A stretch of 64,000 nt of DNA from Patescibacteria group bacterium (GTDB lineage: Bacteria; Patescibacteriota; Microgenomatia; UBA1406; GWC2-37-13), in the NCBI GenBank assembly GCA_023380935.1, contig JAMCST010000016.1:1-64000 (forward strand), given 5' to 3'. The translations under genes were made by a program, and so were the position numbers. The notes under the pieces are model-generated. The model was given only the letters and a program-made list of their open reading frames with translations, did no database searches and was not told where the DNA came from. Each line of letters starts with the position of its first letter. Position 1 is the first letter of the stretch. Shown here piece after piece: positions 7,350-56,644 of the stretch.

Positions 7350-7970
7350 TTATAAAACAATATGATGAATACGACAACGGGCTTGGTAGCTGTCCCACGC
7401 GCCGACTTTGATCAAAGCATCGCGATGGGAAGCCGGTTTTCCGTTAGCCGATAATCGCTGGGTACGGGTGGCGTTCCATTTTTTGCAAACGGCGCAGACC
7501 GCTTTTAACTTGACGACCTCGCCGTCGGCCAGGGCCAACAATTGCGGCATGACGCCGAACGGTTCGCCGCGGAAGTCCGTATCCAGCCCGGCCACCACCA
7601 CATGGATATGCTGTTGCAATAGTTGGTTCACTACGCCAATAATGGTCTTGGGAAAAAACTGCACCTCGTCGATCACCACTACTTTGGTGTTTTTGTCGAT
7701 TTTGTTCAAGATATTTTCCGGGTTTTGGATACTTACCGCACGCCACTTTCGTTTTGAGTGCGAAACGATTCGGTTGGTGACATAACGATTGTCTAAGACA
7801 TGATTAAAAACGACGGTTTTTAACCCGGCGATTTTGTAGCGTTGCAGTCGCTTGACTAACTCTTCGCTTTTGCCGGAAAACATCGGGCCGGTAATCACGT
7901 CCAACCGACCATAACTAATCAACCTGGCAGGTTGGTTTTTGCTTTGGCGGGACGGCCTAGATTTGATCAT
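7350..7970 (-). CDS. tdk: Thymidine kinase (type II)
   Basis: GRLDVITGPMFSGKSEELVKRLQRY, VVVIDEVQFF, GLDTDFRGEPFG, CAVCKKWNATRTQR. Confidence 0.95.
   Translation of the reverse strand: MIKSRPSRQSKNQPARLISYGRLDVITGPMFSGKSEELVKRLQRYKIAGLKTVVFNHVLDNRYVTNRIVSHSKRKWRAVSIQNPENILNKIDKNTKVVVIDEVQFFPKTIIGVVNQLLQQHIHVVVAGLDTDFRGEPFGVMPQLLALADGEVVKLKAVCAVCKKWNATRTQRLSANGKPASHRDALIKVGAWDSYQARCRIHHIVL
7917..7937. repeat. Palindromic element, family C, copy 1, in the 5' part of tdk
   Basis: AATCAACCT-GGC-AGGTTGGTT; shares 20 nt CAACCTGGCAGGTTGGTTTT with 23577-23599. Confidence 0.75.
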
Positions 7971-9234
7971 TTTTGATATTCTGTCTGATAAGCTCCATCA
8001 GCTTTTCCATCACCCATAAATTATGGTACGTGGCTAAATTATAACCAAGGATTTCCCGCTGTTTAAACAAATGATGCAGGTAGGCTTTGGTAAAGTGACG
8101 GCAGACATAACAACCACAACCGGTCACCACCGGCTCCAGATTGTTACGATAGTGTCCCCGCATTATATCCAGTTTTTCAAACTGCACAGATGCCAGGCTG
8201 AATTCCCGATGATTAAGCCTTAGTATTTCTCCCATCCGCGCCAGCCGGGTCGGCTCGACACAATCGAAAGTATCGATGCCGTACCTGACCAGATCAACAA
8301 TGTCGTCGATCTGACCGACACCGAGCAGGTGTACCGGCCGATCGTCGGGCAGGTAATCGGCTACCCAGCGCACCTGATCACGCATCTCTTTTTTGCTTTC
8401 GCCCACCGACACTCCCCCAATCGCCACGCCGGACGTATTTTGCCCCACGACAAATTTTGCCGATTGTTTTCTTAAATCCTCAAACGTTGCTCCCTGGATT
8501 ACTCCGTAAAGATATTGATTTTGCCTGCGACAGGTGGCAGGAGGAAAAGGGTTCCCGACAGCGCGCAGTTTACGAGCACTGGCGGGAAATGAACTCCTGA
8601 CAGAATCTGTCGCCGTACCAGTTTTGAGTTTATGCTTAATACATCTTTTCAACCACTCGTGAGTCCGCTCCATCGCTTGCTGTGCATAACGGCGGGTGGC
8701 CGGATAGTAGGTGCATTCGTCAAACGCCATGTTGAGATCGGCACCGATCTGGCGCTGATATTCCATTGATTTTTCCGGAGTAAACTCAAGTAGTTCTCCA
8801 TCAAACACCGAACGGAATTTCACACCATCATGCGATATTTTTTCAATTAGCGGCCGCTCCGGCCTAACTTCATCATCCTGAAGAACTTTAGCACGCTGAT
8901 GCTGGTCGCTATGATTTAGCCTACGCCCTAACGAAAACACCTGAAATCCGCCCGAGTCGGAGATCAACGGCAGATTTAACTGGCTAAACCGGTGGATGCC
9001 GCCGGCCGACTCCACCACTGCCGCTCCCGGATGGGTTACCAGATGATAGGTATTGACAAACGCGAGCTGGATGCCGATCTCATTGGTTAAGCTGGGAAGC
9101 AGTGCCTTAATCGCTCCTTTTGTCCCCACCGGTACAAATGCCGGGGTAGTGACGGTTCCGTGATCGGTACAGATTTTTCCCAGACGGGCGCGCGATTTTT
9201 TAGACCGCAAGAGGTTTTGGAAAAACTTACCCAT
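7957..9234 (-). CDS. tgt: Queuine/archaeosine tRNA-guanine transglycosylase
   Basis: LISDSGGFQVFSLG, KFRSVFDGELLEFTPEKSMEYQRQIGADLNMAFDEC, YGVIQGATFEDLRKQSA, TGCGCYVC. Confidence 0.95.
   Translation of the reverse strand: MGKFFQNLLRSKKSRARLGKICTDHGTVTTPAFVPVGTKGAIKALLPSLTNEIGIQLAFVNTYHLVTHPGAAVVESAGGIHRFSQLNLPLISDSGGFQVFSLGRRLNHSDQHQRAKVLQDDEVRPERPLIEKISHDGVKFRSVFDGELLEFTPEKSMEYQRQIGADLNMAFDECTYYPATRRYAQQAMERTHEWLKRCIKHKLKTGTATDSVRSSFPASARKLRAVGNPFPPATCRRQNQYLYGVIQGATFEDLRKQSAKFVVGQNTSGVAIGGVSVGESKKEMRDQVRWVADYLPDDRPVHLLGVGQIDDIVDLVRYGIDTFDCVEPTRLARMGEILRLNHREFSLASVQFEKLDIMRGHYRNNLEPVVTGCGCYVCRHFTKAYLHHLFKQREILGYNLATYHNLWVMEKLMELIRQNIKNDQI
8527..8613 (+). repeat. Structured palindromic element, family A, copy 1, inside tgt
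   Basis: Nested stems GCGACAG/CTGTCGC, CAGGAG/CTCCTG, TTCCCGACAG/CTGGCGGGAA with loops shared with 16749-16836. Confidence 0.85.
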
Positions 9235-15991: not shown

Positions 15992-16106
15992 CTCCTACCA
16001 ACAATACATTATTCGCCAGAATCTCACCGTCGCTGTTACCATAATAAAAACAGCCCGGATATCCATGAAACAATATAGTCTACAACGGCTGTGCTACAAT
16101 AAAATC

Positions 16107-17249
16107 ATGAGTGTTGCCGTGGTGGTTTATGACCCGACGATTAATGACCCGCTTAGCCGCGTGCGCGGCGTCGGGCGCTATCTCCAGATTCTGCGCGAAA
16201 ACTTCCCCGACTGGACTTTCACTGATAACTGCTCACTAATAACTCACAACTCAACGTTTATTAATCCTTTTTTCAGCCTCCTCAAACCGCCGCTGGCCAT
16301 GAAACGGATGGCCAAAAAACAGATCGCGGTGATCCACGACTTAATACCGCTTAAGTATCCTTCCCACTTTCCTATCGGTCTAAAAGGGTCGCTTAATGTT
16401 TTTTTGAACAAAATGGTGTTAAGAAATTATGATGCGGTTATTACCGATTCTGAACATAGTAAAAAAGACATTGTGGCTATATTAAAAATCAAACCGGAGA
16501 AAGTAAAAGTTATATATCCGTGTTTGCCACGAATATTTGTTAACGGGTTAACGGATTCACCCCGCTTCGTCCCGCCAAGCGGGACTTCAAGGGGCGAGCG
16601 AGTTAGCGAGTTAAAATCCAGGTTGCCTGATTCTAAATTTTGCCTTTATGTGGGAGATGCCACCTGGAACAAAAACCTGGTCAATCTGGCTAAGGCAGTC
16701 AAGCTGGCAAATGTAAACTGCGTGTTGGTGGGAAAAGTGTTTGAGCGAGCAATAGGTGGCCCAAGTGGAAGGGATCCTGACAGCGCGCAACGCAGTGAGC
16801 ACTGGCGGGAAGGAAACTTGGGACAGAATCTATTGCGAGCTAGTCATGCTTGGCAAAAAGAACTCCGTGATTTTTTATACGCAGTACATAATGATAAACG
16901 CTTTCATTTCCTTGGTTATATTTCGGACGAAGAACTGATTAACATATACCGAAAAGCGGCAGTGAACCTTTTGGTGTCGCGCGATGAAGGGTTTGGGTTT
17001 TCCTATGTTGAGGCGGCCTTCCAGGCAGTGCCTTCGTTGCTTTCCGACATTCCGGTCTTCCGGGAAATTGCCGGGCCGGCAGCGTTTTACTGTTTGCCGG
17101 ACGACCCAAAAACCATCGCCCGCCAAATCGCGGCGATTTTTTCCGATTCGACCAAAGCCACGGCAATGGGACAAACTGCTAAGCGAAGAGTCGCGCGGAT
17201 GACCAACAGCCAATTTACGCAGTCGTTGCGCCGTTTAGTTGACAGTTGA
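16107..17249 (+). CDS. Glycosyltransferase family 4/1-type
   Basis: IAVIHDLIPLKYP, ITDSEHSKKDIVAIL, CLYVGDATWNKNLVNLAKAVK, GFGFSYVEAAFQAVPSLLSDIPVFREIAGPAAFY. Confidence 0.9.
   Translation: MSVAVVVYDPTINDPLSRVRGVGRYLQILRENFPDWTFTDNCSLITHNSTFINPFFSLLKPPLAMKRMAKKQIAVIHDLIPLKYPSHFPIGLKGSLNVFLNKMVLRNYDAVITDSEHSKKDIVAILKIKPEKVKVIYPCLPRIFVNGLTDSPRFVPPSGTSRGERVSELKSRLPDSKFCLYVGDATWNKNLVNLAKAVKLANVNCVLVGKVFERAIGGPSGRDPDSAQRSEHWREGNLGQNLLRASHAWQKELRDFLYAVHNDKRFHFLGYISDEELINIYRKAAVNLLVSRDEGFGFSYVEAAFQAVPSLLSDIPVFREIAGPAAFYCLPDDPKTIARQIAAIFSDSTKATAMGQTAKRRVARMTNSQFTQSLRRLVDS
16560..16594. repeat. Palindromic element, family E, inside the glycosyltransferase gene
   Basis: CCCC-GCTTC-GTCCCGC-CAA-GCGGGAC-TTCAA-GGGG; shares CCCC[AG]CTTCGTCCCG with 56665-56681. 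Confidence 0.75.
16749..16836 (+). repeat. Structured palindromic element, family A, copy 2, inside the glycosyltransferase gene
   Basis: GCAATAG/CTATTGC, CCCAAGT/ACTTGGG, TCCTGACAG/CTGGCGGGA; loops as in 8527-8613. Confidence 0.85.
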
Positions 17250-56161: not shown

Positions 56162-56553
56162 GGGGATGACAGGCCTCGACGGAAGATTTGCTCTTTGACA
56201 AATGGCTGAGACGAACCTATTGCGTTAAATGGAAAAAATCAAGTGCTAATGATGAAAGTCAGGCAATTGAAGCGTCATACTACAGGAATATGCGATTCGC
56301 ATATGCCCCTGTGATGGCGTAACAATCTCTGTTTAGGATTTTCCCTGGTTCAATCTTAAAATAGAGCTTAACCAACTGGGGTCGGTCAAGGCGGAGTTAC
56401 TGTTTGTCCGCTTCTGAACGATAAACCATCAAACGGCAGCTTATTTGCGTTTATTTGTTTTCACAAATAAGCTTGAGTCAAAAACAATTTATTCTCAGCT
56501 ACAACATTTGCCAGAGGCTCTTTCGGACCCGGGTTCAACTCCCGGCATCTCCA
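56162..56553 (+). ncRNA. ssrA: Transfer-messenger RNA (tmRNA)
   Basis: 5' GGGGATGACAGGCCTCGAC pairs with 3' GGGTTCAACTCCCGGCATCTCCA; tag ORF GCTAATGATGAA...GTGATGGCGTAA. Confidence 0.93.
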
Positions 56554-56644
56554 CACTTCGCCCCTAATGAAGCTAATAGCGAAAGGGGCTACGTGGTGGC
56601 GCAGCCACTAATATTTTTCCAGCCCAATATCTAATCGCGAAGTG
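56554..56644. repeat. Palindrome-armed element directly abutting the tmRNA 3' end
   Basis: CACTTCGC (56554-56561) / GCGAAGTG (56637-56644); internal CCCCT/AGGGG and GTGGC-GCA-GCCAC. Confidence 0.65.

Follow-up and report, generated by a model that had tools for sequence, protein, structure and literature searches.

The window, that is, the whole stretch of 64,000 nucleotides analysed here from a Patescibacteria group bacterium, carries two copies of a palindromic element, each lying inside a protein-coding gene (Table 1). Copy 1 is found in tgt and copy 2 in the gene of a GT4-type glycosyltransferase. In translation, the tgt frame stays open across copy 1, which contributes about 29 residues (the ATDSVRSSFPASARKLRAVGNPFPPATCR region) and no stop. 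The original prediction, made from the letters alone, had described both palindromes and an in-frame insert in tgt. These parts are borne out, with the correction that the element is antisense to tgt.

When folded as single-stranded DNA, copy 1 reaches -21.8 kcal/mol, against -11.3 in shuffles (z -4.45, 0 of 200), and its stems are nested as predicted. The outer stem (GCGACAG/CTGTCGC) is topped by an additional conserved G.T pair, and TGG faces ACAGAA in the loop that follows. The inner stem, TTCCCGACAG/CTGGCGGGAA, contains an A.G mismatch, and the apical motif is CGCGC...GAGCA. The predicted structure of this Tgt is poor (mean pLDDT 53.8, residues 207-242 below 50) and was left out of the interpretation.

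Table 1. The two element copies in the window, their host genes and the anatomy of copy 1 (R1, covariance model of the element).
Feature	Position	Strand	Evidence or remark
tgt, tRNA guanosine(34) transglycosylase	7957..9234	-	host gene of copy 1; TIGR00430 393.7 bits, cut-off 306.75
Element copy 1, 87 bp = 29 codons, antisense to tgt	8527..8613	+	R1 95.6 bits, E 2.1e-22
Outer stem, 5' arm GCGACAGG	8527..8534	+	last G pairs with T
Unpaired conserved TGG	8535..8537	+	8534-8537 = GTGG, foot of inner hairpin
Middle stem, 5' arm CAGGAG	8538..8543	+	6/6 pairs covary
Conserved internal loop, 5' side GAAAAGGG (family: GGAAGGG)	8544..8551	+	mean column identity 0.85
Inner stem, 5' arm TTCCCGACAG	8552..8561	+	column conservation and covariation analysis
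Apical region CGCGCAGTTTACGAGCA (family: CGCGCAG-variable-CGAGCA)	8562..8578	+	apical motif CGCGC...GAGCA
Inner stem, 3' arm CTGGCGGGAA	8579..8588	+	column conservation and covariation analysis
Conserved internal loop, 3' side ATGAA (family: GGAAA)	8589..8593	+	column conservation
Middle stem, 3' arm CTCCTG	8594..8599	+	covariation
Unpaired conserved ACAGAA (family: ACAGRA)	8600..8605	+	mean column identity 0.87
Outer stem, 3' arm TCTGTCGC	8606..8613	+	sequence and covariation
GT4-type glycosyltransferase, host gene of copy 2	16065..17249	+	several NCBIfam glycosyltransferase models match, each below cut-off
Element copy 2, 88 bp, sense to glycosyltransferase	16749..16836	+	R1 96.4 bits, E 1.2e-22; DNA fold z -3.41

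A third copy was found outside the window by blastn of the source genome (G000:C13:33736-33816); it is sense to a gene that we take, from motifs in its protein, to be dus. The covariance model R1, built from 22 copies, returned at E<=1 the same three copies in the source genome and no further ones.

A covariance-model search of CPR genomes, proposed with the original prediction, shows how far the element extends. Blastn with copy 1 gave matches in 14 of the 57 genomes searched. Within the order, R1 detects the element in 46 of 83 genomes at E<=0.001; copy numbers per genome reach 27 (G028 and G058). At E<=1e-4, 70 of the 373 genomes searched in the class carry it, as do 17 of 379 in a phylum sample, nine of these 17 lying outside the class. 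When GTDB r220 contigs were scanned for an exact pattern, 17 loci emerged, from Ca. Roizmanbacteria, Levybacteria/Levyibacteriota, Microgenomates and one Saccharibacteria record. The last of these (L170; PFOA01000028.1, 6199-6297), in a transketolase-like gene, is identical to a Roizmanbacteria locus (L180) over the 129 bases compared, so the Saccharibacteria contig is probably misbinned. The exact pattern had no matches in viral contigs, and no match was found in phages. Carriage by phages or plasmids was dropped as a candidate: the one match, in a Skermanella plasmid, is absent under the covariance model and is therefore regarded as chance. In Rfam, the element has no match at the gathering score in the window, copy 1 has none at E<=10, and a copy from G028 (L025) drew sub-threshold miRNA models only; a T-box resemblance of GGGTGG was dropped for want of an Rfam match. 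(The one gathering-score match that Rfam gives for the window is a tmRNA gene at 56162-56556, + strand.) No earlier description of the family was found in searches of the open-licence literature. This large, structured repeat family is real and apparently undescribed.

The element is mostly about 87-135 bp long, the longest copy having 174 (L014), a range that arises because the apical loop varies. Its structure was examined on the 95 distinct places or rows among 98 matches (A2); the counts on 93 copies given below exclude matches shorter than 75 nt. Among the 95 distinct copies, pairing is seen in 92.1% of cells and 21 of 25 pairs are changed on both sides, counts that are biased towards the proposed structure since the alignment was fitted to it. 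The covariation score is 0.510, as against 0.185 when shuffled (0 of 500 shuffles reach the observed score) and at most 0.109 when slid; a MAFFT alignment of 22 copies gave 0.375 versus 0.144. In the outer and middle stems, column identity averages 0.59-0.64; the averages are 0.81-0.87 for the internal loops and 0.85-0.90 for the inner stem. Thus, the outer and middle stems keep their pairing, and the loops and the inner stem keep their sequence. The earlier proposal of selection on structure and not on sequence is accordingly not supported in that form, only the outer and middle stems being free in sequence. Immediately 5' of the middle stem the tetranucleotide is GTGG in 49 copies, GTGA in 25, GTGT in 13, ATGG in five and ATGT in one, that is, GTGN in 87 of 93.

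Past four shared intrinsic pairs, the outer stem runs on for a mean of 5.5 bp, compared to 1.1 with shuffled flanks (n=93). In recent copies of G028, the cores are near-identical and the arms are different yet perfectly paired. About 14 copies are without outer arms and have a common motif instead, like RGGARCAG...CTGGAR, and similar arm motifs (GCGACAGG, GCAATAGG) are shared by several genera. Given these armless copies, the recurring motifs and the lack of a clean empty site, derivation of the arms from the target was not adopted. They may have originated by flank copying, from pre-existing hairpins or by evolution in place.

The two strands of the element are not equivalent. With DNA parameters, the GTGG strand folds more stably than its complement in 91 of 93 copies, and it is also the better folder in all 13 in-gene copies that are antisense to the host gene; neither count is of independent cases, as the copies share ancestry. 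Wobble is rare (48 G.T and 28 A.C among about 2,200 cells, or about 2%, the conserved G.T position left out). A spanning frame is present at 43 of the 95 places, and 33 of these, about a third of the 95, were retained as in-gene; the ten excluded, chosen by eye, have little gene on one side. The element is also found in intergenic positions. The retained copies, 20 sense and 13 antisense, sit in permissive linkers and use more than one reading phase, the commonest accounting for 13 of 20 sense and 9 of 12 antisense copies (the tgt copy excluded). Since both orientations and more than one phase occur, host mRNA or a conserved peptide is unlikely to be the thing kept. The results suggest that what is recognised is a single folded DNA strand, and not the host mRNA or an encoded peptide; an RNA produced by the element itself is a less probable alternative.

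The genes that host copies include tgt, GT4, dus, TsaD, asnB and transketolase; the names other than those of tgt and GT4, which come from profile matches (below cut-off for GT4), are our assignments from sequence motifs. Certain loops are used recurrently across genera: in GT4 (G000, G028, G026 and G063), TsaD (G028 and G062) and asnB (G006 and G058), as well as in transketolase and dus. The cores of copies at one gene site in different genera differ. In dus (G000 versus G001; L064, L089) and in transketolase (G074 versus G070; L092, L093), a single site holds the element in opposite orientations, which suggests that the core flips between inverted arms or re-inserts. Three different loops of Tgt are occupied, with matches in 3 of the 14 Tgt loci scanned. 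In a GT2 gene (L205-L234), R1 matches 5 of 30 loci, and the linkers of the rest carry diverse, often palindromic inserts. In transketolase, R1 matches 5 of 18 loci at E<=0.01, and the stretch from GWHG to TREAYG measures about 75-81 residues with or without the element (11 genomes where it could be delimited).

A clean pre-insertion site was not found in the linkers of tgt, transketolase, GT2 and asnB, all of which are variable or scarred. The original prediction had contrasted the tgt insert with a short linker in other Tgt proteins and had looked to orthologues in close relatives for empty sites. The Tgt linkers listed for relatives have 15 to 47 residues, several with other inserts, and this hypervariability invalidates the comparison with a short ancestral linker.

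The asnB genes of genus g7 offer a different kind of comparison. The complete element is present in G058; in G060 a 33-base palindrome retains its two ends and its outer loops, and spans both ends of the model (R1 14.2 bits, E 0.14); and G057 and G036 have what we read as shorter remnants. From the sequences, the series may be read as loss of the hairpin tip. In-protein copies appear to decay into ordinary protein linkers. Two orthologous pairs of copies in G082 and G083 illustrate how copies change: one site is nearly unchanged, and at the other the stems differ yet stay paired. At the former, site 2, the flanking coding DNA has visibly diverged (roughly 80% identical by eye) around the almost unchanged element, as could also be expected if a function were being maintained.

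Most descriptions of in-frame palindromic repeats concern Rickettsia and some genomes rich in REPs (PMC3733652, PMC10969869). The Rickettsia repeats (RPEs) are presented there as short palindromic repeats, in frame in unrelated genes and also between genes, and those of R. conorii bear a CGTC tag at one end (PMC3733652). The resemblance in principle that the original prediction drew is upheld: the element is palindromic, unrelated genes are translated through it in frame, other genomic copies exist, and covariation on 95 copies is strong. Neither of the outcomes that the prediction had named as refuting it was observed. Compared by description, it differs from RPEs in having no CGTC tag, its ends being site-specific arms and its fixed loops containing GTGG and ACAGRA, in belonging to another host phylum, and in lying in genes in both orientations and in more than one frame.

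REPs have been reported inside genes, in palindromes, and in related genomes at roughly matching sites (PMC3733652), and PMC6006769 gives the REPs of RAYTs a GT[AG]G guide and a size of 21-65 nt. The element is likewise strand-specific, and some copies are in genes or palindromes; at the 5' foot of its hairpin GTGG stands in 49 of 93 copies. It is, however, longer (mostly 87-135 nt), with several internal loops and a long variable outer stem. In REPtrons, copies flank a RAYT gene and GTAG or GTGG stands 0-2 nt 5' of the hairpin; no such flanking is seen for the element (0 of 20 Y1 loci within 1.5 kb), and copies without exact GTGG have GTGA, GTGT, ATGG or ATGT. MITEs are short, non-autonomous and dispersed, with an inverted-repeat character. 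These traits, which also appear in PMC10969869, are shared by the element, but its outer arms vary by site and are not fixed terminal repeats, and no target-site duplication was clear on inspection by eye. The element works like REPs and RPEs and, by the tests made, is a member of neither. The family is familiar in kind; its size, structure, spread and visible decay are unusual.

Signs of movement are seen in G028, where near-identical cores are found at unrelated sites and where, in two loci (L107 and L110), one core appears nested within the apical loop of another. As no clean pre-insertion site was found, insertion itself is what we infer. A candidate for the enzyme comes from the distribution of the Y1 transposase domain (Y1_Tnp, PF01797), which is present in 39 of 46 element-bearing genomes versus 20 of 37 others (Fisher p 0.003). 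Counted by genus, the association weakens (p 0.028), and it loses significance within genus g20 (p 0.13) and among single-genome genera (p 0.22); the partial rank correlation given genome size is 0.37 (permutation p 0.0003). Seven of the 46 element-bearing genomes have no Y1 match, the 99% complete G027 among them. In the 20 fetched Y1 loci, three copies were found, about 2.4-2.7 kb from the Y1 gene, and the IS200-like loci L164 and L165 contain no copy when scanned. Co-occurrence without adjacency led us to reject Y1/RAYT as a proven partner; a Y1/HUH transposase is the leading guess for the mobilising enzyme, though a doubtful one.

We prefer the view, with a probability of roughly 0.7, that the element is a mobile, non-autonomous palindromic DNA repeat, comparable in its working to a large REP or RPE, and that its recognised form is one folded single strand. 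When single-stranded, the GTGG...ACAGRA strand would fold to a long hairpin whose conserved unpaired motifs would be recognised by an enzyme acting in trans. Insertion would occur either way round, between genes or in tolerant protein linkers, where the copies would be translated through. Later deletion of the hairpin tip would leave short palindromic scars and, eventually, ordinary linker sequence. In favour of the mobile repeat are its patchy distribution, the near-identical G028 cores at unrelated sites, conserved loops with free stems, covariation, the strand asymmetry in folding, both orientations, the g7 asnB remnants and the co-occurrence with Y1. Against it are the lack of an empty site, of a duplication and of Y1 adjacency, the Y1-negative carriers, the weak Y1 association within groups and the almost unchanged site 2 of G082/G083. 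Alternatively, the element could be a true REP that belongs to a RAYT (Y1/HUH) transposase, with GTGG as the guide at the hairpin foot and the outer stem as the palindrome that holds the REP. The published guides and the REP families in palindromes and genes fit this, as do GTGN directly 5' of the middle stem and the Y1 co-occurrence; the size of the element, the carriers with no Y1 match and the absence of adjoining copies at the fetched Y1 loci do not, and we consider it possible but less likely than not.

Conserved loops and covarying stems are also what RNA families show, and the near-identity at one orthologous site (G082/G083) could reflect a structured RNA, transcribed from the element and acting in cis or trans (in processing, regulation or intron-like removal). 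The two in-gene orientations, the same strand folding best in every antisense copy, the scarcity of wobble pairs and the Rfam result speak against this and make it improbable. Moreover, as the retained in-gene copies are open in frame, excision is not needed. A mutational origin, with template switching making and keeping perfect palindromes and no recognition involved, would account for the very few G.U intermediates and the many unrelated palindromes in the same linkers. It is very improbable, because template switching would erase the conserved unpaired loops and mismatches, which persist, and near-identical cores stand at unrelated sites. Short, structured and dispersed, the element could even be taken for a SINE-like RNA element moved by reverse transcriptase, but RVT_1 is found in only 9 of the 46 genomes with the element and in 6 of the 37 without it (Fisher p 0.78), and G058, G018 and G016, all rich in copies, have no reverse transcriptase match at E<=1e-5. 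Such a partner was rejected for lack of association, and retrotransposition is scarcely credible.

The mobile-repeat reading can be taken further. The element may be a phylum-wide parasite of CPR bacteria, recognised as a folded single strand, whose insertion copies part of the target flank into site-specific inverted arms and whose cycles of insertion and hairpin collapse are a main source of new protein linkers. We regard this as rather unlikely; if true, flank-copying insertion would set its transposition apart from the usual kind, in which the target is directly duplicated. Whatever the mechanism, the family is large and widespread in reduced, mostly uncultured Patescibacteria, and its structure is detailed enough for predicting the binding requirements of a recognition protein. 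Sites with full copies, collapsed copies and scars allow comparison, and the gain and reshaping of linkers in such bacteria becomes a testable question. For annotators, the warning is that repeats may be the origin of many of the odd inserts seen in CPR proteins.

Some further features of these sites may be recorded. Around several G028 copies (L104, L107 and L110), the shared sequence extends into the flanks by about 35 bases on either side. Palindromic inserts unrelated to the element occupy the same protein linkers in relatives (GT2, asnB and tgt); the asnB genes of G007 and G059 (within L248-L256) have other palindromes, that of G007 being a perfect one of 28 bases. The Tgt of G020 (L038) carries two similar inserts, unrelated to the element, in two loops.
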